A DNA stretch of 64,000 nucleotides, from NCBI GenBank assembly GCA_021774625.1, contig JAJFIV010000008.1:237392-301391 (forward strand), in the 5' to 3' direction. Made by a program: the position numbers and the translations under genes. The stretch is from Alphaproteobacteria bacterium. GTDB taxonomy: Bacteria > Pseudomonadota > Alphaproteobacteria > Sphingomonadales > JAKSBY01. The notes beneath the pieces are model-generated. The model worked only from the letters and a program-made list of their open reading frames with translations. It was not told where the DNA came from and did not search any database. This document shows positions 15,784 through 25,952 of this stretch, piece by piece (position 1 is the stretch's first letter; each line of letters starts with the position of its first letter).

Positions 15784-16041
15784 ATGCAAGACACACCCAC
15801 AACGGATGAAATTTATAACCGCGTCAAGGAGTTGACCGCGCCGTTCAACAAGAAAGGCATCGCTCTTACACCGGATACAACCTTTTCTGCGGATCTGGAC
15901 CTGGATTCGCTCACCGTAATGGACCTGGTTGCGGCGATTGAAGATGAATTTGACATTGTGCTGCCACTGAATATGCTGCCCGACCTGGAAACGCTCCAGC
16001 AGGTGGCCGGCGCCGTAAAAGAGATTTTGAAAAAGAAATGA
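15784..16041 (+). CDS. Acyl carrier protein paired with serine palmitoyltransferase
   Basis: An 85-residue acyl carrier protein. DLDLDSLTVMDLVAAIEDEFDIVLP holds the phosphopantetheine serine in DSL followed by the usual acidic helix. ATG 15784 gives a normal-length ACP; the frame is open upstream without a better start. Its stop overlaps the ATG of the next gene (ATGA), so the two are translationally coupled. In Caulobacter an ACP encoded next to spt supplies the acyl chain for sphingolipid synthesis; the same role is inferred here. Confidence 0.9.
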   Translation: MQDTPTTDEIYNRVKELTAPFNKKGIALTPDTTFSADLDLDSLTVMDLVAAIEDEFDIVLPLNMLPDLETLQQVAGAVKEILKKK

Positions 16042-17318
16042 GCGCAGACCTTTTTAATAAGTTCGATCCGGTTTTCAAAGCCCGGGCGGAACAGCCCGTC
16101 GACAGGGCGGACCCCTTTAAAGTTTGTATGGATGAGGTCCTTTCGGAAACCGAAGCGATGATCGACGGCCGCCACACCATCCTGGCCGGCACCAACAATT
16201 ATATGGGCATGACCTTTCGCGAAGAAGCGATCGAGGCCGCCCACAAGGCTATTGACGCGTTCGGCACCGGCACCACCGGATCACGGGTTCTGAACGGCAC
16301 CTATGCCGGTCACCGTATTCTGGAAGACGCGCTTCGTGATTTTTACGGCACCGAGCATGCAATGGTCTTTTCCACCGGCTATCAGGCCAATCTGGGCATT
16401 ATTTCCACGCTCGCCGGAAAAGACGATTTCGTCATTATCGACGCCGACAGCCATGCCAGCATTTATGACGGCTGCGCACTGGGCAATGCGACGGTTATGC
16501 GCTTTCGCCATAATGATGTGGCCGATCTCGACAAACGCCTCGGCCGGATTCCGCCGGAAGCAGGCAAGCTCGTCGTGATTGAAGGCATTTACAGCATGCT
16601 GGGCGATAAAGCGCCGGTGTCGAAGATCATTGCCATCTGCAAAAAACACGATGCGGCCATCATTGTCGATGAAGCCCATTCCATGGGCTTTTGCGGCGAG
16701 TCTGGCCGCGGCGTGGCTCAGGCAGAAGGCGTTGAGGGTGATGTGGATTTCATCATCGGGACTTTTTCCAAAAGTGTCGGCACCGTGGGCGGGTTTTGTG
16801 TTTCCAATCACCCCAAATTCGAAGTTCTGCGGCTGGTCTGCCGCCCCTATATGTTTACGGCGTCCCTGCCGCCATCCGTGGTGGCCTCGGCAGCCAAATC
16901 CATCGAACTGTTGAAATACGCCGGCAACAGGCGGGCGCATTTATGGGAAAATGCCCGGCGGCTCCATAGCGGGCTGAAAGAAGCCGGTTTTGTTCTGGGG
17001 ACCGAGACGGCGGAAAGTCCGATTATTGCCGTCTGTCTGCCCGATATGCCGACCACAACCCGTTTCTGGGCGGAACTGCTTCATGCCGGCGTCTATGCCA
17101 ATATGGCGGTACCGCCCGCGACGCCGCAGGGGCTTAATCTGCTCCGGTGCAGCGTCTGCGCCGCCCATAAGCCGGAACAGATCGACCAGATTATTGAACG
17201 GTTTATCAGGGTGGCGGAAATCCTGGCGCTGAATCTCAGCGAAACGCGCCGCGGCGGCGCAACCGCAGAAATAGCAGCGCACCCGCAAGCACCGGGTGCC
17301 GCCGCCGCCACGGGGTAA
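16038..17318 (+). CDS. spt: Serine palmitoyltransferase (alpha-oxoamine synthase)
   Basis: Condenses serine with a long-chain acyl thioester to 3-ketosphinganine, the first committed step of sphingolipid synthesis. The 426-residue PLP enzyme shows GTNNYMGMTFREEAIEAA, GTGTTGSRVLNGTYAGH, YSMLGDKAPV, DEAHSMGFCGESGRGVAQ and the PLP lysine in GTFSKSVGTVGGFCVSN; the FSKS form separates it from ALAS (LGKA). Coupling to an ACP and the nearby lipid kinase, hydroxylase and ceramide-synthase-like genes support the assignment. AONS or KBL would be the alternatives. Its 3' end overlaps the convergent gene by 83 bases. Confidence 0.88.
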   Translation: MSADLFNKFDPVFKARAEQPVDRADPFKVCMDEVLSETEAMIDGRHTILAGTNNYMGMTFREEAIEAAHKAIDAFGTGTTGSRVLNGTYAGHRILEDALRDFYGTEHAMVFSTGYQANLGIISTLAGKDDFVIIDADSHASIYDGCALGNATVMRFRHNDVADLDKRLGRIPPEAGKLVVIEGIYSMLGDKAPVSKIIAICKKHDAAIIVDEAHSMGFCGESGRGVAQAEGVEGDVDFIIGTFSKSVGTVGGFCVSNHPKFEVLRLVCRPYMFTASLPPSVVASAAKSIELLKYAGNRRAHLWENARRLHSGLKEAGFVLGTETAESPIIAVCLPDMPTTTRFWAELLHAGVYANMAVPPATPQGLNLLRCSVCAAHKPEQIDQIIERFIRVAEILALNLSETRRGGATAEIAAHPQAPGAAAATG

Positions 17319-18162
17319 TCTCAATTTCCACACCCGAATGGCGTTTGACTTTCCAGGCGATATAATCAATCCCGCCATCGAAGGTGAAAGCGGCTTTCAT
17401 CAGGCGCAATATACTGACCGTTTTACCGTTCCATCGCCGCAACCGCCAGCGCCGCCGCGCCCGCGCCCTTGTCTGAGGCCGCCAGCCGGCAAGAGCGGAT
17501 AGAATAAGGGGCGTAATGGCGTCATAGCGCGCCTGGTCCAGAAGATAAAGCTCCCTTCCCTTGTCCGCACCTTCGGACCGCAATTCAGCGCCATAAGTCA
17601 GTGAAAATGCCTTTTGCCATATGGCTGAGGGGGAGGACCGCTCTACGACGAACGGGAGGGCAGCGCGGATCATGGTGAGACAGGCCTGGGATACGGCATC
17701 GGTGACCGCGCATCTGCTTTCAGCATCGCGGGCGTAGACAAGACAAGCCGGCTGGCTGAAACGCGCCCATACCGACACGTTCAGGCATTTATCTGATGTC
17801 CGGAAACGCAGATCCGCCATACTCAGAACAGCATATTTCGACCGGACAATTTCCCCGCCCGCACCGGTTTCCGCATAAAACACATTGGGCGGCAGAATTT
17901 TATTGGCGGCGGCCAGCGGCATATTGCCATAGGCTTCCCGGTAATCGTCGACAATCACATAAAAATCGAGAATTTTGCCCTCGGTTTCCCCGGCTCGAAG
18001 GCAGGAACCGTAAAACAGGACAGCCGCCGCCGTAGAACCAAACCGTTTGCGGATTGCCGCCGCGGCGGTCATGATCGCAGGGGGTTGGGCCTTTGCCAAT
18101 TCCTTCTGAATGAAGGAGTCGAGATCGGAAAGCTGCCGGCCATTCTGCCCCATGGCAATCAC
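17236..18162 (-). CDS. Nucleotidyltransferase-like protein of the sphingolipid locus
   Basis: A 308-residue protein I cannot assign to a characterised family. Around residue 50 LFYGSCLRAG followed by ILDFYVIVDDYREAYG resembles the GS...D-x-D core of minimal nucleotidyltransferases, in altered form. The rest is mixed, with a very basic stretch (RARARRRWRLRRWNGK) near residue 235 and VLAGALLFLRLRRR at the C terminus. The start is GTG 18162 overlapping the kinase stop (GTGA); ATG 18153 is possible. Coupling to a lipid kinase suggests modification of the phosphorylated lipid head group. It runs 83 bases antisense into spt. Confidence 0.75.
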   Translation of the reverse strand: MIAMGQNGRQLSDLDSFIQKELAKAQPPAIMTAAAAIRKRFGSTAAAVLFYGSCLRAGETEGKILDFYVIVDDYREAYGNMPLAAANKILPPNVFYAETGAGGEIVRSKYAVLSMADLRFRTSDKCLNVSVWARFSQPACLVYARDAESRCAVTDAVSQACLTMIRAALPFVVERSSPSAIWQKAFSLTYGAELRSEGADKGRELYLLDQARYDAITPLILSALAGWRPQTRARARRRWRLRRWNGKTVSILRLMKAAFTFDGGIDYIAWKVKRHSGVEIEITPWRRRHPVLAGALLFLRLRRRGAFR

Positions 18163-19163
18163 CGGAAACTGATAAATGTCAGGCTTTTGTCACCCCGCAA
18201 AACCACCGGTTTACCCTCTGGCGGTTCATAGATTTCTCCGTCCAGGGTCACATGATTGCACCCTTCGATCCTGATTTCATCGGCGGTACGGGTATGAACT
18301 CCATCCAGGCTCGCGCGGCCAAACCGGCCCGTGATCAATCCTTTGATGGCATTAAACAGGGCGCGGTAGCGGAAATCAACGGCGGAGAATTTCAATCCTC
18401 CTTTCCCTTCCCGGCCATAAGGTTTCAAACCGAAAAGCAGCCGGTCCAGCGTCGTAATCACGATCCAGAAATACTGACCGTGTAAAATACCGCCGCCACG
18501 GATATGGATATTCGCCGGCCAAGTATAAAGCTCGGATGCAGGGTTTTTACCGTTGAAAATGATCTTGAACAAAGCAATCGGGATGGCAATGCCGTGCGAA
18601 ACGAAATTTGGCATCTTCATCGGATAAATATGGTCCCGGCAGTAGCAAATACTATTAACGACGGCCGCCCCGCCAAAAAACATGCCATAGCGCGGCGGTT
18701 GCCCGTCACCGACGTCCAGTTCGATCACTTTGTGTTCCCGAAGGCTTTCATCGACCCTGCCCTGTTCTGCCAGCGACAAAAGACGCCGGAGCAGTTGGAC
18801 CGGTTTTCCTTTGTACCCGAGATCGGCAGCGATCATATTGGTTTTACCGCCCGGAAGAATGGCGATCGGCGGAACATCTTCGAACGGTTTGTCATTGAAA
18901 ATACTGGACAGCGTCGCCTGGATTGTCCCGTCGCCGCCATTGATAACGATCATACAGGGATTGACGGCGGCGAACATACGGAGCGCATGTGGAATGGAGC
19001 CGATGTCATCAAGTTCGAAATGAAAAGCATTCTTGGCGTCCTCCACCGTACGGCGGACTTTACTCATAACCGACTGGTTCCGCGTACTCTGCGGATTGCT
19101 TAATATCGCAACCAGGGTTTTGGAATGGCTGTATTTTTCAACTTTAATCGGCTGGTGCTTCAT
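18159..19163 (-). CDS. Lipid kinase, diacylglycerol kinase fold; likely ceramide kinase
   Basis: A 334-residue member of the DAGK/LCB5/YegS family, which phosphorylates the hydroxyl of lipids with ATP. TLVAILSNPQSTRN opens the catalytic domain, VINGGDGTIQATLSSIF is the nucleotide-binding GGDGT motif, and ILPGGKTNMIAADLGYKGKP is the second conserved loop. The C-terminal half is the beta-sandwich domain (HVTLDGEIYEPPEGKPVVLR). Next to spt and overlapping the nucleotidyltransferase-like gene, it resembles the kinase of the Caulobacter anionic sphingolipid (ceramide polyphosphoglycerate) genes. Substrate is inference. ATG 19163 is used. Confidence 0.86.
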   Translation of the reverse strand: MKHQPIKVEKYSHSKTLVAILSNPQSTRNQSVMSKVRRTVEDAKNAFHFELDDIGSIPHALRMFAAVNPCMIVINGGDGTIQATLSSIFNDKPFEDVPPIAILPGGKTNMIAADLGYKGKPVQLLRRLLSLAEQGRVDESLREHKVIELDVGDGQPPRYGMFFGGAAVVNSICYCRDHIYPMKMPNFVSHGIAIPIALFKIIFNGKNPASELYTWPANIHIRGGGILHGQYFWIVITTLDRLLFGLKPYGREGKGGLKFSAVDFRYRALFNAIKGLITGRFGRASLDGVHTRTADEIRIEGCNHVTLDGEIYEPPEGKPVVLRGDKSLTFISFR

Positions 19164-19244
19164 GCAAATTGCTATTCAAAATGCCCATCCTGGAAATCAG
19201 GGTGAGATCACCGAAACTTCAATAGAGCATGATTGGGTAGGAAA

Positions 19245-19799
19245 TCAACGCCTGCGCCGCCGCTTCTTACTTTTATCTTCCGCCGAGTGGAACATATAAG
19301 TCAGGCTGATTTCCATTTTCTGTGCGCCCTCTTTCACGCCAAAGGCCACTTCCTTGAAGTCAGGGGCGCTCAAAACCAGTTTCGGATTATTGGAAAAGCC
19401 AAAGCCTTCCGTGAAAAAGTCCGCCTTGCCATTGGCATTCTTGTCATGCATGACAACAAAGGCATAGGTGCCGGGCCCCGGCAAAATGACACAGATATCC
19501 ATTTCGTCGGCCAGTGTCGGCACATCCACACGCATAAGCTTTTTGCCGGACGCCAGAAAATCATCCGGATTGTCATCATAAACCTGCACCCGGACATTGC
19601 CTTCGTCGGTTATGACTCCTTTGACAGAAATCAGAACGGATGTTTTATTTGTCCCCGTTTGACAGGCGGCCATTTCATCCGGCCCTTGTACGGAGGCATC
19701 AACATCATTGGCTTCTGCGGACTGTGCGGCCGAAGCAAATCCTAACGAAACGACCGGTAAAAAGACTGCGGCTATTTTTCTCAAGTGGCCAGAAATCAT
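19245..19799 (-). CDS. Secreted DUF2141 protein
   Basis: A 184-residue exported protein. The N terminus is a signal peptide (basic start, then AAVFLPVVSLGFASAAQSAEA with a likely cleavage after AQSA). Residues about 60-170 form a DUF2141 domain: NVRVQVYDDNPDDFLA, PTLADEMDICVILPGPGTYAFVVMHDKNANGKADF, EGFGFSNNP. The domain looks like a beta-sandwich; function unknown. The C terminus is a run of Lys and Arg. ATG 19799 follows GGAG. It precedes the lipid kinase by 81 bases on the same strand and may be cotranscribed with it. Confidence 0.85.
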   Translation of the reverse strand: MISGHLRKIAAVFLPVVSLGFASAAQSAEANDVDASVQGPDEMAACQTGTNKTSVLISVKGVITDEGNVRVQVYDDNPDDFLASGKKLMRVDVPTLADEMDICVILPGPGTYAFVVMHDKNANGKADFFTEGFGFSNNPKLVLSAPDFKEVAFGVKEGAQKMEISLTYMFHSAEDKSKKRRRRR

Positions 19800-20019
19800 G
19801 CCCTGCTCCAAAATTCTGCCGCGTATATAGCGGGCGCGGCGGAAATATGCTAAAAAAAACTGGGCTAAAATATGTCTGCCCATAGTTTAGCCATTATTCA
19901 TCATCCAACATTAACCCAAGATGACTGGCTTTTTGTCCGCCTCATTGTCCGTTTTTTCTTGCAAACCAACGGAATGCGGATTCATAAGAGGTCTGCATAC
20001 AGACAGATGATAAAAATTA

Positions 20020-21219
20020 ATGCTTACAAAACTTGACCGATATCTTCTGAGGCAGTTTTCAGTTCCGCTCTTTACGACGCTCATAATTGCCGCGCTGCTT
20101 CTGATTCTGGAGCGCATGCTCCGCCTGTTCGATTTTGTTGTCAATCAGGGCGGACCGGTTAAGGTGGTATGGCAGATGCTGGGAAATCTGATCCCGCATT
20201 ATATTGTCCTGGCCCTCCCTGTGGGGCTTTTTCTCGGCATCTTGCTGACCTTCCGCAAACTTTCCCTGAACAGCGAACTTGATGCCATACGCGCCAGCGG
20301 TTTCGGCCTTTTCCGCATGATGAAACCAGCTATGTTCCTTTCGCTGATTGCCCTGGTGGTCAATCTCGTCCTGCTCGGCTTCATCCAGCCGCACAGCCGG
20401 TTCGCCTACAGAGACCTGGTGTTCGAACTGCGCAGCGGGGCCCTGGGCGCCAGCATCAAGACCGGGGAATTTGTTTCGCTCCCCAACGATATTGTGCTGC
20501 GCGTCGAACAGTCGCGCAACAACGGCTCGGAACTGCTGGGCATTTTTGTTCAAAGGACCGACGCCGATGGACGGCAGATTGCCGTTTCCGCACAACGCGG
20601 CGGCTTTTTTTCCACCAATGACCGGCGGAATGTCTTTTTAAGGCTTTACGACGGACGGCTGGTGGATTTAAGCGAGACTCAGGAGCGTCCCCGCGTGTTG
20701 TCCTTCAATACCTGGGATTTGCCCATCAATTTGCCGCAGCTCGCGAATGAGACCGTGCGCGGCGAATCTCAGAATGAACTGACCATAACGCAATTATGGA
20801 CCGGCATGATGAGCGGCAATTTAAACGAAGTCGACCAGAACGGCTACCGCGCGCATTTTCACTGGCAGCTGTCCAATATTTTTCTTTTTCTCTTTTTTCC
20901 CTTTCTCGCCGCCACGCTTGGCATATCCAACAAACGGCAGGGGGAGGCGCTGGGTATCGTTGTCGGGCTTGCCCTGATTGTCCTTTATAACGAACTGCAG
21001 GAAGTCTGCCGGACGATAGTGGCTAACGGCACGGCTTCTCCCTATGCCACCACGTGGATATTGTTCGCCCTCTATTGTTTGCTCACCTACCGCCTCTTTT
21101 ACATCAGCGCCCGCAAAGTCGGCGGCGATCCGTTGCGCTGGGCGACAACCTGCTGGCTTGCCATTCGCAGGCCGGTGCTCAGGGTCTTCGCGCGCACGAA
21201 AAAAGTGCTTGGAACATGA
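20020..21219 (+). CDS. lptF: LptF-type permease (YjgP/YjgQ family)
   Basis: A 399-residue permease half of an LptB2FG-type lipid exporter, which extracts lipid from the outer leaflet of the inner membrane. Membrane segments are visible near residues 12-32, 55-80, 95-120 and again between about 285 and 375; between them lies the periplasmic beta-jellyroll. Family motifs include LLRQFSVPLF and LRKLSLNSELDAIRASGFG. Its stop overlaps the lptG start. In many alphaproteobacteria lptFG precede lptD; here they are flanked by sphingolipid genes and no lptA, lptB, lptC or lptD is in the window. Confidence 0.9.
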   Translation: MLTKLDRYLLRQFSVPLFTTLIIAALLLILERMLRLFDFVVNQGGPVKVVWQMLGNLIPHYIVLALPVGLFLGILLTFRKLSLNSELDAIRASGFGLFRMMKPAMFLSLIALVVNLVLLGFIQPHSRFAYRDLVFELRSGALGASIKTGEFVSLPNDIVLRVEQSRNNGSELLGIFVQRTDADGRQIAVSAQRGGFFSTNDRRNVFLRLYDGRLVDLSETQERPRVLSFNTWDLPINLPQLANETVRGESQNELTITQLWTGMMSGNLNEVDQNGYRAHFHWQLSNIFLFLFFPFLAATLGISNKRQGEALGIVVGLALIVLYNELQEVCRTIVANGTASPYATTWILFALYCLLTYRLFYISARKVGGDPLRWATTCWLAIRRPVLRVFARTKKVLGT

Positions 21220-22337
21220 GCGCGCTGACGGCACGTGTGTGGCAGATCGGTATGCCCTCCCGCATTCTTGGCGGCTACCTGATCCGGCAATATTTTATAA
21301 GATTTTTTGGCCTTCTGATCGGCCTGACGACAATTCTGCAGCTTTTGGATTTAATGGCGCAGTCGGACCAGATTCTCGCTGCGGATGGCGCGACCTGGCA
21401 ATCCCTGGTCCGCTACCTCTCTATGCGTGTCCCGCAGCTGGCATCAGAATTTACGCCCTTTTCAGCGTTGCTTGCCGCCATTCTGACTCTTGCGGGGCTC
21501 AGTCAGCACAGCGAAATAATCGTTATGAAGGCTTCCAGTCTATCTGCTCACACCATTCTGTATCCCTTGCTGGCGGCCTGCACCGGCATCGCTCTCGTGC
21601 ATTTTGCCTTCAATGAAACAGTCCTGGTCCGCGCCAATGCTTCCCTGAATTACTGGCAGGAGAACGATTATGCCACCAATCTGCCGCCCGTGCCGGACGT
21701 CGCCAGCGACGCCATGATGCTGGATGGGAATAATCTGGTGCTGATCCAAGGTGTGCGCCGCAACGCCAATCTTGTTGTGCTCGATAAAGTCTCCATTTTC
21801 GAACGGGATGGCGGCGGCAATCTGATGAATATGGTTCGCGCCGATTTCGCCATCTATATCGATAATAACTGGACGCTGTATGAAGTGCGGCGCTTTAATG
21901 TCATCGATCATACCCTGGAGACATTTGACAACCAGACATGGCCGACCACCATTCCGCCGGAGCGTTTCCTCGCCCTCACTGTCCGCCCGGACCGGGTGGA
22001 TATTTTTGTCTTATGGGAGTCCATTCAGGAATTGCGGCGGGAAGGCCATGCAACCGGCTCGCTCATAACGTCTTTCTACCATAAAATGGTGGAACCGATG
22101 GCTACGATATTGATGCCGCTGCTGGCCGCCATTGTCGGTTTTGGCATCCACCGCGGCGGCACCCTGTTTATCCGTTCCGCGATTGCCATGGCTTTGGGGT
22201 TTGGCTATTTTGTCGCCGATAATTTCATGCTGGCCATGGGTGAATTTGGCGTTGTGCCGCCGCTTCTCGCCGCCTGGGCGCCTATTCTGCTGTTTACCGC
22301 TCTTGGTCTCAGTGTCCTGATCTACACAGAGGAATAG
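21216..22337 (+). CDS. lptG: LptG-type permease (YjgP/YjgQ family)
   Basis: The 373-residue partner of LptF. It starts at ATG 21216 inside the lptF stop (ATGA); this gives MSALTARVWQIGMPSRILGGYLIRQYFIRFF with the usual N-terminal helix entering the membrane. Further segments lie at about 60-85, 100-120 and between 275 and 370, separated by the periplasmic domain. GLSQHSEIIVMKASSLS matches the cytoplasmic loop that couples to the ATPase LptB. The ATPase is not encoded nearby and must be supplied elsewhere. Context suggests possible transport of sphingolipid instead of, or besides, LPS. Confidence 0.9.
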   Translation: MSALTARVWQIGMPSRILGGYLIRQYFIRFFGLLIGLTTILQLLDLMAQSDQILAADGATWQSLVRYLSMRVPQLASEFTPFSALLAAILTLAGLSQHSEIIVMKASSLSAHTILYPLLAACTGIALVHFAFNETVLVRANASLNYWQENDYATNLPPVPDVASDAMMLDGNNLVLIQGVRRNANLVVLDKVSIFERDGGGNLMNMVRADFAIYIDNNWTLYEVRRFNVIDHTLETFDNQTWPTTIPPERFLALTVRPDRVDIFVLWESIQELRREGHATGSLITSFYHKMVEPMATILMPLLAAIVGFGIHRGGTLFIRSAIAMALGFGYFVADNFMLAMGEFGVVPPLLAAWAPILLFTALGLSVLIYTEE

Positions 22338-22345
22338 AGCCCCAG

Positions 22346-23899
22346 GTGACCAGTACAAAAAGTCCTCCCCCGGAAGCGGATGATCCTTCGCACAGGGATC
22401 AGTCCGTCGTGGCAAAAAGCGCCGGCCTCGCCTTTCTGGGGCGTCTGGGCGCTCTGATCGAAGCCGTCAGTTTCCCCGTTTTCGCTTATTTGTATGGCGC
22501 CGAAGCCGTTGGGGTCTATGTCACTCTTTGGGGCTATATCATGGCCACGACCGCTGTGACCGACTATGCTATGACCACAACGCTGCAACGTTTTGTACCG
22601 GCGGCAAAAACCGAGGAAGAAGCCCATAGCGCGGTCAAAATCGCCTTGATTGTTTCAACCGGCCTGGGGCTGGCTCTTGCCATGATTTTGTATTTCCTCG
22701 CGCCCTATATTGCCGGTTTCATCAATGCCGGTCCGGCGGAAGAAGAAAAACTCAGCACCATCATCCGGCTTTATGTCTGGTCGCTGCCCCTCTGGACCTT
22801 TGTTGAATCCGCAACGGCAACTGTCCGGGCGCGGCGCACCTTCGGCCCGGAAATCCGCATCCGGATATTTTATGAACAAGGTCTGAGACTGGCTGCAGGC
22901 GTTGGCTTTTTCTATCTCGGCTACACGCTTTACGGACTCTATCTTGCGCATATTTTCTCGCAAGGCGCCGCGGCTGTCCTCAGCATTCTGCTCGTCGCAA
23001 AATATTATGATTTAAAAGCCATCCTGTTTGCTCCGCTCGACCGGAAACTGTTGCGGGAGATGTTGTCATTCGCCACGCCGATGACGCCGGCGAACTTCCT
23101 CAAAAAACTCAATATTCAGCTGCCGGTTATTATGCTGAACACCTTTTTTCCCGGCGCCGCCGGCGCGCAGGCCGCGGCTCTCTTCGCCGCGGCACGAAAG
23201 ATCGCCAGCGTTTTGCGGGTTATCCGGCTCAGTTTCGATTATGTGCTCGCCCCGCTGGCGGCGGAAAAAAGTGCAAAATCCGGCCACGCATCGCTCGCCG
23301 ATATGTACAGTTTCGCCACCCGTCTGATGATTGCAACCATCATACCGGCTGCGGTCATTCTGATTCTGATCCGGGAAAGTCTGCTTGATCTGGCGTTTGA
23401 ACCACAATTCATGGCGGCGGCCGGCGCCCTTCTGGTGCTGTCGGTGGGCCGCATTCTGGAAGCCGCTCTCGGTCCTGCATCAACGCTTATTGAAATGCTC
23501 GGCAACCGCATGATTCCCCTGATCAACGGAACCATCGGCGTGACCGTCATGACGTCGCTTCTGTTTCTGCTGGGGCCGGCCTACGGTGCGACCGGCGCCG
23601 CGTTCGCCGCATCCGCCGGTCTTTTTGCTTCGGGTCTCGCCGACCTCTGGCAGGCCCATCGCATTTTCGGACTGGTTCCCTACCGGCGCAGCCTTTTGCG
23701 GCCCGCCTTTGTCGCCATCCTTGCGTCTGCCGCAAGCGCTGCCCTGATATATGCCGCGACACCCTTCGGCCCGGCAGCGGTTCTGGCGGTGGGAATTGCG
23801 AGCCTGATCGCAAGCTATGCGCTCATTTGCCGCTATGGTCTGAACGCCGCGGACGCCAAAGCTCTCGGCCCGTTCGGCCGCTTCGCGCGGAAACCCTGA
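22346..23899 (+). CDS. Polysaccharide/lipid flippase family membrane protein
   Basis: A 517-residue polytopic protein of the MATE-like oligosaccharide flippase (Wzx/MOP) superfamily. About 12-14 membrane helices can be seen, beginning with SAGLAFLGRLGALIEAVSFPVFAYLYGAEAVGVY, a typical first helix pair, and later FATPMTPANFLKKL and LSVGRILEAALGPAST. The GTG start at 22346 lies 8 bases after lptG and follows AG-rich sequence. It would flip a lipid-linked substrate from the cytoplasmic to the periplasmic leaflet; in this operon a glycosylated or phosphorylated sphingolipid is a candidate. Confidence 0.86.
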   Translation: MTSTKSPPPEADDPSHRDQSVVAKSAGLAFLGRLGALIEAVSFPVFAYLYGAEAVGVYVTLWGYIMATTAVTDYAMTTTLQRFVPAAKTEEEAHSAVKIALIVSTGLGLALAMILYFLAPYIAGFINAGPAEEEKLSTIIRLYVWSLPLWTFVESATATVRARRTFGPEIRIRIFYEQGLRLAAGVGFFYLGYTLYGLYLAHIFSQGAAAVLSILLVAKYYDLKAILFAPLDRKLLREMLSFATPMTPANFLKKLNIQLPVIMLNTFFPGAAGAQAAALFAAARKIASVLRVIRLSFDYVLAPLAAEKSAKSGHASLADMYSFATRLMIATIIPAAVILILIRESLLDLAFEPQFMAAAGALLVLSVGRILEAALGPASTLIEMLGNRMIPLINGTIGVTVMTSLLFLLGPAYGATGAAFAASAGLFASGLADLWQAHRIFGLVPYRRSLLRPAFVAILASAASAALIYAATPFGPAAVLAVGIASLIASYALICRYGLNAADAKALGPFGRFARKP

Positions 23900-24030
23900 A
23901 AAGAAGGCCTTTTATTTCCACTGATGACACCTTACATTAACGCCACGCCGGCTGTTATCCGCCGAAACCTTTTTTGGCGGCGTGGTGGTGGTTGGACAGA
24001 CGCTGAGATTTCAGATTGAGGAGAAGAACC

Positions 24031-24795
24031 GTGGTTGCCCGCTTCGGGTTTTGGAAAAAGAAAACCCACTATCTGAATAAAATGACGCTGAAGGAACTGG
24101 TCGCCGCCTATTTTCAATATTATGCGATCCAGGGGTATATTATTGTCGGCATCGCAGCTTCCGTGGTGGCCTTTATGTATGCGACCGCGGTCCTTCCCAA
24201 CCTGATCGCTGCCGGGATTGCGGTCTTTACCTATCCGCTGGCGTGGTATCTCCTGCACCGTTTTGTGCTGCATGGACGTTATCTTTATAAATCACCGCTA
24301 ACGGCGTCCGTGTGGAAGCGGATTCATTTCGATCATCACCAGGATCCCCATAATCTGGAAGTGTTGTTCGGCGCGCTTTACACCACGATGCCGACCATTT
24401 TCCTGATTACCGCCCCGGTCGGCTGGGCGCTTGACGGGCTTGGCGGGGCGGCGACAGCCGTGGCCGCCGGCATGTTCACCACCTGCTTTTACGAATTTGC
24501 CCATTGCATCCAGCATTTATCCTATAAGCCGAAAAACCGGATGCTGCTGCTGATGAAGCAGCGCCACATGGCCCATCATTTCCATGATGAAACCGGGAAT
24601 TTCGGCATCACTAATTTTACCTGGGACAAACTGTTCGGAACTTTTTACGAACGGGACGAACGCCCGGAAAAAAGCCCGACCGTTTTCAATATAGGTTACA
24701 ATCGGGAAGAAGCTGTGCGTTATCCCTGGGTCGCCAGATTATCCGGCGGCATGCCCTATGACGATCCCCGTGAAAAACGCCGCGACGCTGCCTGA
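24031..24795 (+). CDS. Fatty acid hydroxylase / sterol desaturase superfamily
   Basis: A 254-residue integral-membrane di-iron enzyme. The histidine clusters are all present: HRFVLHG, HFDHHQDPHN, HCIQHL and RHMAHHFHDE, together the eight-His pattern of the superfamily. Four hydrophobic segments lie between about residues 30 and 150. I chose GTG 24031 (MVARFGFWKKK), which follows GAGGAGAAG. Members hydroxylate acyl chains, sterols or ceramides. Placed 11 bases before the ceramide-synthase-like gene and in the spt locus, it may hydroxylate the acyl or long-chain base of the sphingolipid; this is inference. Confidence 0.85.
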   Translation: MVARFGFWKKKTHYLNKMTLKELVAAYFQYYAIQGYIIVGIAASVVAFMYATAVLPNLIAAGIAVFTYPLAWYLLHRFVLHGRYLYKSPLTASVWKRIHFDHHQDPHNLEVLFGALYTTMPTIFLITAPVGWALDGLGGAATAVAAGMFTTCFYEFAHCIQHLSYKPKNRMLLLMKQRHMAHHFHDETGNFGITNFTWDKLFGTFYERDERPEKSPTVFNIGYNREEAVRYPWVARLSGGMPYDDPREKRRDAA

Positions 24796-24806
24796 AAAGT
24801 ATCTTT

Positions 24807-25952
24807 ATGACCCCATCGCTTCGCATTGAGCCTGTTGACGGGAGCAAAGCTCTCAAACAGTTCGTCCTGGTGCCCGTCGATCTTTACAGGCACGACCCCC
24901 ATTGGGTGCGCCCGCTGACCCTGGAGCGACTGCAGCATCTCTCGCCCAAACACAACCGGATGTTTGAGCATGCGGAGGTCAGGATGTGGACAGCGCTGCG
25001 TGGTGATAAGGCCGTCGGGCGCATCTCGGCCCAGGTAGATCAATTGGTCCAGCAGCATGTCAAAAAAGGACTTGGTCATTTTGGCATGTTCGAGTGCGAG
25101 GACAATCCGGAAACCGCGAAGGCTCTTTTCACCACGGCGGAAACCTGGCTGCAAGAAAAGGGCATGCAGGAAGTGAGCGGCCCGTTCGACCTTTCCGTCA
25201 ACGAACAGGTCGGCATCCTGGTCGATGGTTTTGATACGCCCCCCATGGTGATGATGGGCCACGCGCTGCCCTATTATCAGGCCCTGCTGGAAGCAAACGG
25301 CTATGGCAAGGAAAAGGATGTCTACGCCTATATTCTGGATATCACCAATCGTTTTCCGGAGAAAATTCAACGAATCTATCAGGCGGCGCGCAAATCCAAG
25401 CGCATTAGAATGCGCAATCTCGATATGAAAAACTATACCCAGGATATCGAGTTGATTATGGATATTTTCAACGACGCCTGGTCGGAAAACTGGGGCTTTG
25501 TACCCTTTACGCCCGCCGAAGCGCGGCAAACAGCAAAAGCGCTGAAACCGGTTGTCCGCACCGACGGCGTTTTTATCTGCGAATATGACGGCGTTCCTGC
25601 CGCCATGTTCGTTACCGTCGCCGACCTGAACGAACTGATCCGCGATATGAACGGCTCGCTCTTCCCGTTTAAATGGATGACGCTTTTATATAATCTGCAC
25701 CGGGTGCATGAAACCCGTTTTCGGGTGCCGTTAATGGGAACCCGGAAGCATCTTCAGGGAACGACCGCCGGCGCCCTTATGTCCTTCATCATGATTGAGG
25801 AAGCCCGGAGAAACGGCGTGTATCACGGCATCAAATGGTCGGAACTGTCCTGGATTCTCGAAGACAACAAGCCGATGATCAATATTCTCGAACAAATCCA
25901 CTGCAAGCGCTATAAAACCTACCGGATTTACGGAAAAAAGCTGGCCGCTTAA
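24807..25952 (+). CDS. GNAT-fold acyltransferase, candidate bacterial ceramide synthase
   Basis: A 381-residue protein of a family usually annotated GNAT N-acetyltransferase. Features: FVLVPVDLYRHDPHWVRPL near the start, AVGRISAQVDQLV, VSGPFDLSVNEQVGILVDGF, MMMGHALPYYQALLEANGY, FNDAWSENWGFVPFTPAEA, RVPLMGTRKHLQGT and GIKWSELSWILEDNKPMINI. It is twice the usual GNAT length, so two such folds are likely. As I recall, the Caulobacter ceramide synthase bCerS belongs to a GNAT-like family of this size encoded in its sphingolipid cluster, hence the proposal that this enzyme N-acylates the sphingoid base. It is 11 bases after the hydroxylase gene. Confidence 0.75.
   Translation: MTPSLRIEPVDGSKALKQFVLVPVDLYRHDPHWVRPLTLERLQHLSPKHNRMFEHAEVRMWTALRGDKAVGRISAQVDQLVQQHVKKGLGHFGMFECEDNPETAKALFTTAETWLQEKGMQEVSGPFDLSVNEQVGILVDGFDTPPMVMMGHALPYYQALLEANGYGKEKDVYAYILDITNRFPEKIQRIYQAARKSKRIRMRNLDMKNYTQDIELIMDIFNDAWSENWGFVPFTPAEARQTAKALKPVVRTDGVFICEYDGVPAAMFVTVADLNELIRDMNGSLFPFKWMTLLYNLHRVHETRFRVPLMGTRKHLQGTTAGALMSFIMIEEARRNGVYHGIKWSELSWILEDNKPMINILEQIHCKRYKTYRIYGKKLAA

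Follow-up and report, generated by a model that had tools for sequence, protein, structure and literature searches.

We analysed a 64,000-nucleotide window from the genome of an Alphaproteobacteria bacterium (GCA_021774625.1, contig JAJFIV010000008.1, positions 237,392-301,391 of the forward strand). The subject is a ten-gene island at window positions 15784-25952 that combines sphingolipid genes with an LptF/LptG permease pair (Table 1). It is probable that this island, together with an aasR-cerR gene pair elsewhere in the genome, makes a phosphosphingolipid activated with cytidine diphosphate (CDP), and that the island permease, here called LptF2G2, exports it in place of lipopolysaccharide (LPS). 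In other bacteria, the LptF/LptG permease sends LPS toward the outer membrane. The gene families point to a product that would be phosphorylated, carry a further modification and be transported outward, as a first-pass annotation of the window had proposed. Beyond that annotation, the island pair is the only LptF/LptG in the genome, and the LPS genes tested are absent.

LPS genes and Lpt inventory

The window's own genome (G000; other G numbers denote genomes of the class sample, and L numbers denote loci) is 100% complete in 35 contigs. Searches that find both LpxC and LpxB in E. coli and in Caulobacter find neither protein in this genome, nor in three genomes of the same order. Because both are absent at full completeness, the organism probably makes no LPS. 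The island LptF and LptG, which pass the NCBIfam cut-offs for the LPS-export equivalogs, are the sole pair in the genome. LptC and LptD are also present once each, with lptD on contig 7 and an lptC-lptA-lptB-rpoN cluster on contig 20 (LptA and LptB were read from sequence and gene order).

The same pattern recurs across the class sample of 289 genomes, 34 of which contain the family of the island's 308-residue, Tam41-like protein. Each of the 14 LpxC-positive island genomes carries at least four LptF/G genes, i.e. at least two pairs, and 18 of the 20 without LpxC have exactly two such genes (G244 has three and the fragmented G071 none). The association between LpxC and LptF/G copy number over the 34 island genomes has p = 1.2e-9, a value that ignores relatedness. 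LpxB accompanies LpxC in 12 of the 14 LpxC-positive genomes and is missing in 18 of the 20 LpxC-negative ones. Divergent or partial LpxB-family matches are left in G058 and G275 (family f59), which lack LpxC. LptD was found in all 36 genomes tested, as a single copy in LPS-positive and LPS-less genomes alike. In each of the 18 LPS-less island genomes examined, the LptF/LptG pair lies within ~12 kb of the Tam41-like gene. Searches of G066, a 100% complete genome in one contig of 5.4 Mb, found no LpxC, LptF/LptG or Tam41-like protein; this genome is apparently without LPS and without an Lpt permease.

Paralogue split and deletion scar

The tree of 78 LptF and LptG proteins, with branch support from the Shimodaira-Hasegawa-like approximate likelihood ratio test (SH-aLRT), separates two kinds of permease. 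For LptF and for LptG alike, the copies of LPS makers that lie outside an island, most of them linked to lptD, group in a single clade (11 rows, SH-aLRT 100). The sister clade contains all island permeases, 8 of them of LPS makers and 18 of LPS-less genomes, together with those of G012 and G145 (28 rows, support 97 for LptF and 94 for LptG). The island and non-island clades are separated by long stems of 1.3-1.5 changes per site, and the window's LptF and LptG both fall in the island clade, outside the non-island (LptF1G1) clade.

The non-island pair has left a deletion scar. Nine LPS makers have the gene order holC-pepA, lptF1-lptG1-lptD-surA-(pdxA)-rsmA. G000 and nine other LPS-less genomes have the order holC-pepA, lptD-surA-(pdxA)-rsmA, with lptF1-lptG1 absent in between, and in G000 the gap between pepA and lptD measures 181 bp. 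That pepA abuts lptD implies, taken with the tree, that the LPS pair lptF1G1 was lost along with LPS while the island pair stayed. Families f29, f81 and f94 each hold an LPS-less island genome and an LpxC-positive genome without the Tam41-like protein, which suggests several losses of LPS. It is likely that LptF2G2 is a dedicated sphingolipid permease and that several alphaproteobacterial lineages have swapped LPS for sphingolipid, losing the lipid A genes and lptF1G1 and keeping the Lpt bridge with a new cargo.

The Tam41-fold protein and the head group

The 308-residue protein on its own has no Pfam or NCBIfam match, and 2 of its 24 relatives match Pfam Tam41 PF09139 (best 8.8e-7). Its AlphaFold2 model has a predicted local distance difference test (pLDDT) score of 91, and the five best PDB folds for the model are all Tam41, with E values of 5e-7 to 2e-5 and template modelling (TM) scores of 0.40-0.55. 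Its YGS...D nucleotidyltransferase motif is invariant. What the first-pass annotation had called nucleotidyltransferase-like is a Tam41 fold. Because Tam41 is a synthase that uses cytidine triphosphate (CTP) to make CDP-diacylglycerol, and because the gene overlaps by 4 bp that of the island kinase, which family and position point to as a ceramide kinase, the simplest reading is that the protein probably makes CDP-ceramide from ceramide-1-phosphate and CTP.

A CDP-diacylglycerol synthase domain has been noted in the Caulobacter gene at the CpgC position (PMC11324152), and cpgC was found in 2025 to be required there for the conversion of ceramide-1-phosphate to CPG, by a mechanism called unidentified (PMC12275187). 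This leaves room for a protein that moves glycerate or another group straight to ceramide-1-phosphate, or that activates another lipid phosphate, as does the partial Tam41 fold match (TM about 0.5). However, the best folds are all CTP-dependent CDP-diacylglycerol synthases, two relatives match the Tam41 profile, and the gene overlaps that of the ceramide kinase and accompanies it in 39 of the 41 loci. We regard direct transfer, or another lipid phosphate, as possible but rather unlikely.

For the CDP-ceramide that we prefer, the head group would not be that of CPG2. The ceramide kinase gene does adjoin the CpgC-position gene here, as the CPG2 pathway requires. The own genome, however, gives only a weak 80-bit match to the CpgA-type CDP-alcohol transferase, compared with 397-635 bits in CpgA-bearing island genomes, so that CPG2 is not the expected product and was rejected. 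Contig 25 (L193:6853-11285) encodes, as read from sequence, an inositol-1-phosphate-synthase-like protein, a nucleotidyltransferase and two CDP-alcohol transferases, one of 503 residues; this cluster is unlinked to the island and is a possible head-group source.

Alternative explanations for the permease

One Lpt permease might carry any outer-leaflet lipid, with the two clades reflecting drift after duplication and not specialisation for a cargo. This would fit with the single-copy LptD common to LPS-positive and LPS-less genomes, and with the same-order genomes that lack the Tam41-like protein and use the same permease type. Drift is nevertheless improbable, as both pairs are kept in every LPS-positive island genome, and loss of LPS is accompanied by loss of the non-island pair and never of the island pair (18 cases examined). 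That the island LptF and LptG are ordinary LPS permeases lying by chance beside sphingolipid genes, with LPS made by lpx genes that have diverged or are missing from the assembly, fits their passing the LPS-export equivalogs and an assembly in 35 contigs, but is very improbable given that neither LpxC nor LpxB is found in this 100% complete genome or in three others of the order, that each protein falls in the island clade and not the LPS clade, and that the usual site of an LPS pair beside lptD is empty.

Several points weigh against export of a CDP-activated phosphosphingolipid by a dedicated permease. The absence of LPS was judged from LpxC and LpxB, and LpxA, LpxD, LpxK and WaaA were not searched for. 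The same-order genomes G012 and G145 have sole permeases of the LptF2G2 type and no Tam41-like protein, so the permease may carry something other than a phosphosphingolipid. Because of relatedness among the sampled genomes, the p-values given here overstate independence and are descriptive only. On the LptD gene tree, whose deep nodes are weak, LPS state would change 4-5 times. The reaction of CpgC is not established in PMC11324152 or PMC12275187, and the mapping onto Caulobacter was made by gene order from PMC11324152, not by protein alignment.

Gene content of the island

All ten genes are open reading frames at the places given in Table 1, as checked on the sequence. Their order, their overlaps and their Pfam and NCBIfam families bear out the first-pass annotation. 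Overlaps of 4 bp link the genes of the acyl carrier protein (ACP) and Spt, of CerK and the 308-residue protein, and of LptF and LptG; the coupling of the first two pairs had been claimed from the start. The spt and Tam41-like genes converge and share 83 bp at their 3' ends (window 17236-17318), and the Spt tail encoded there runs past the part aligned to solved homologues.

Table 1 Genes of the island, with window coordinates
Product	Position	Strand	Basis
Acyl carrier protein (AcpR-like), DSL phosphopantetheine site	15784..16041	+	PF00550 PP-binding 9.7e-12
Serine palmitoyltransferase (Spt)	16038..17318	+	NF047599 612.7 bits; Aminotran_1_2 2.8e-49; 2x8u E=4.9e-179
CpgC-position protein, Tam41-fold cytidylyltransferase (308 aa; alternative start 18153)	17236..18162	-	predicted CTP:ceramide-1-phosphate cytidylyltransferase
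Ceramide kinase (CpgB/CerK-like), DAGK fold with GGDGT	18159..19163	-	PF00781 DAGK_cat 3.5e-14
Secreted DUF2141 protein, beta-sandwich	19245..19883	-	PF09912 7.9e-25
LptF2, sphingolipid-type Lpt permease	20020..21219	+	PF03739 LptF_LptG 1.4e-67; island clade in tree
LptG2, sphingolipid-type Lpt permease	21216..22337	+	PF03739 LptF_LptG 3e-67; island clade in tree
MOP-type flippase (Polysacc_synt), candidate inner-membrane sphingolipid flippase	22346..23899	+	PF01943 9.6e-13
Fatty-acid hydroxylase family protein, candidate ceramide hydroxylase	24082..24795 (ORF opens 24016)	+	PF04116 FA_hydroxylase 2.5e-19
GNAT-type bacterial ceramide synthase-like protein (bCerS position)	24807..25952	+	family GNAT PF00583 matches; conserved position

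Spt scores 612.7 bits against the NCBIfam serine palmitoyltransferase model NF047599 (cut-off 500) and stays under the bioF and kbl cut-offs. Its best solved relative is 2x8u, annotated as serine palmitoyltransferase (E = 4.9e-179, GTFSKS site). These cut-offs and this match reject an identity as 8-amino-7-oxononanoate synthase (AONS) or KBL and uphold the initial assignment. The bCerS-like protein on its own has no match in Pfam or NCBIfam, and 14 of 16 members of its family match GNAT PF00583 (best 5.8e-7); by family and conserved position it is a candidate bacterial ceramide synthase-like protein. The window encodes neither ceramide reductase (CerR) nor the acyl-ACP synthetase AasR, in agreement with the first-pass annotation. 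Genes for both are adjacent on contig 7 of the same genome (CerR 387 bits, next best 122; AasR 957 bits, next best 86), which, with the bCerS-like gene counted as the candidate cerS, makes the five-gene ceramide set (aasR, cerR, acpR, spt, cerS) complete in two loci. A broken pathway, as the missing aasR and cerR might have implied, was rejected on these grounds.

In the alignment of FA_hydroxylase relatives the histidine boxes are invariant and the start is conserved, and because of the latter position 24082 is a likelier start than 24016. In most loci of the class, the hydroxylase and bCerS-like genes are adjacent. The secreted DUF2141 protein is a beta-sandwich; its alignment shows an Asp/Asn-rich D-x-N-x-N-G loop and, in this group, a basic tail. 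The core of its predicted model has a pLDDT above 90, and none of the structures matched by its fold reaches significance (best E 2.4e-3).

Conservation of the neighbourhood

Twenty neighbourhoods of 20 kb from the class sample and 80 named loci were compared, and the 41 named loci with full flanks were counted. Among these, which were found via the 308-residue family, Spt occurs in 35, CerK in 39, LptF in 35, LptG in 34 and the bCerS-like protein in 36, with ACP at the same place in 33. None of the 41 has AsnC, PAS-chemotaxis or TrmJ, the outer neighbours in the window, so the clustering is not due to chance. The gene-neighbourhood comparison that the first-pass annotation had called for thus finds its neighbours conserved in dozens of genomes.

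The 41 loci are of two types. The CPG2 type (21 loci) has extra genes for a CpgA-like CDP-alcohol transferase, a CofC-like nucleotidyltransferase and a calcineurin-like phosphoesterase, named by sequence and position, and is seen in Rhodospirillales, Dongia, Pelagibius, Nevskia and Desulfobulbaceae. The other type (20 loci) is without them. DUF2141 is present in 17 of the 20 loci without the extra genes and in 3 of the 21 with them (p = 7e-6, ignoring relatedness), and a MOP-type flippase in 14 and none, respectively. By gene content, the window's island is of the second type, with Kordiimonas, Iodidimonas, Eilatimonas and sphingomonads. Tam41-like islands also occur in records of Nitrospirota, Calditrichota and Desulfobacterota type (L092, L103, L105, L118, L127 and L133), mostly metagenome-assembled genomes, which suggests wide horizontal spread. 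The island in record L083 is alphaproteobacterial although the title reads Candidatus Kuenenia stuttgartiensis, so the record is probably mislabelled.

Proposed pathway and significance

In the pathway that we propose, AasR would load an acyl chain onto ACP, Spt would condense the ACP-bound chain with serine, the GNAT-type bCerS would attach the second chain and CerR would carry out a reduction, while the FA_hydroxylase protein may add a hydroxyl group. CerK would phosphorylate the ceramide to ceramide-1-phosphate, which the Tam41-fold protein may convert with CTP to CDP-ceramide, ready for a head group. The flippase would turn the sphingolipid over in the inner membrane. LptF2G2, with the canonical LptB ATPase, would pull the lipid out of the inner membrane and load it on the LptC-LptA-LptD bridge to the outer leaflet. 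With lipid A synthesis and LptF1G1 lost, the remaining Lpt machine would serve the sphingolipid.

The route of bacterial sphingolipids to the outer membrane was stated to be unknown in 2024 (PMC11324152). The island provides a natural experiment on this export, in which LPS was lost, the non-island permease was lost and the island permease was kept, and it yields a specific prediction, CDP-ceramide, for the reaction of CpgC. Our results suggest that LptF and LptG are mislabelled as LPS exporters in genomes without LPS. An outer membrane without LPS may be commoner in Alphaproteobacteria than sphingomonads alone would indicate. We found no literature that connects the copy number of LptF2G2 with the loss of LPS; subscription papers were mostly not covered, and earlier publication is possible.

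Comparison with known systems

The canonical, lptD-linked LptF and LptG share with the island pair both their family and their place in the Lpt machine, but form a separate clade. Tam41, the mitochondrial CDP-diacylglycerol synthase (PDB 6ig2, 6ig4 and 7ecd), shares its fold and a YGS...D-type motif with the 308-residue protein; the two differ in sequence (about 13-15% identity, TM 0.40-0.55) and in the predicted acceptor, ceramide-1-phosphate.

The phosphosphingolipid cluster of Caulobacter crescentus is CC_1168-CC_1152, with LptC2, LptF2 and LptG2 as second copies and, in addition, CpgA, CpgD and a CofC-like gene (PMC11324152). ACP, Spt, the CpgC-position gene, ceramide kinase, LptF2/LptG2, the flippase and a ceramide synthase gene (a candidate in the island) are common to this cluster and the island, and the local order of Spt followed by CpgC-CerK is the same in both. 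Caulobacter retains its LPS genes (LpxC and LpxB were found in the control genome), whereas the window's genome has neither; there LptFG is the sole pair, LptC is single and CpgA is absent. The island also differs in including DUF2141 and FA_hydroxylase genes and in having aasR-cerR on another contig. The likeness to Caulobacter drawn in the first-pass annotation therefore holds for gene order but not for the CPG2-specific CpgA, given only the 80-bit match.

Close counterparts are the islands of Kordiimonas, Iodidimonas, Eilatimonas and sphingomonads (L063-L074, L085, L094 and L134), which have the same genes in the same order, with DUF2141 and mostly with the flippase; like the window, they lack fam13, fam16 and fam19. 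In these relatives aasR-cerR usually lies beside ACP, where the window has a gene for a pyridoxal phosphate (PLP) enzyme of the Cys/Met type, and some named relatives have no hydroxylase within the stretch examined. Its genes and their arrangement mark the island as a variant, of Kordiimonas/sphingomonad type, of the phosphosphingolipid cluster known from Caulobacter.

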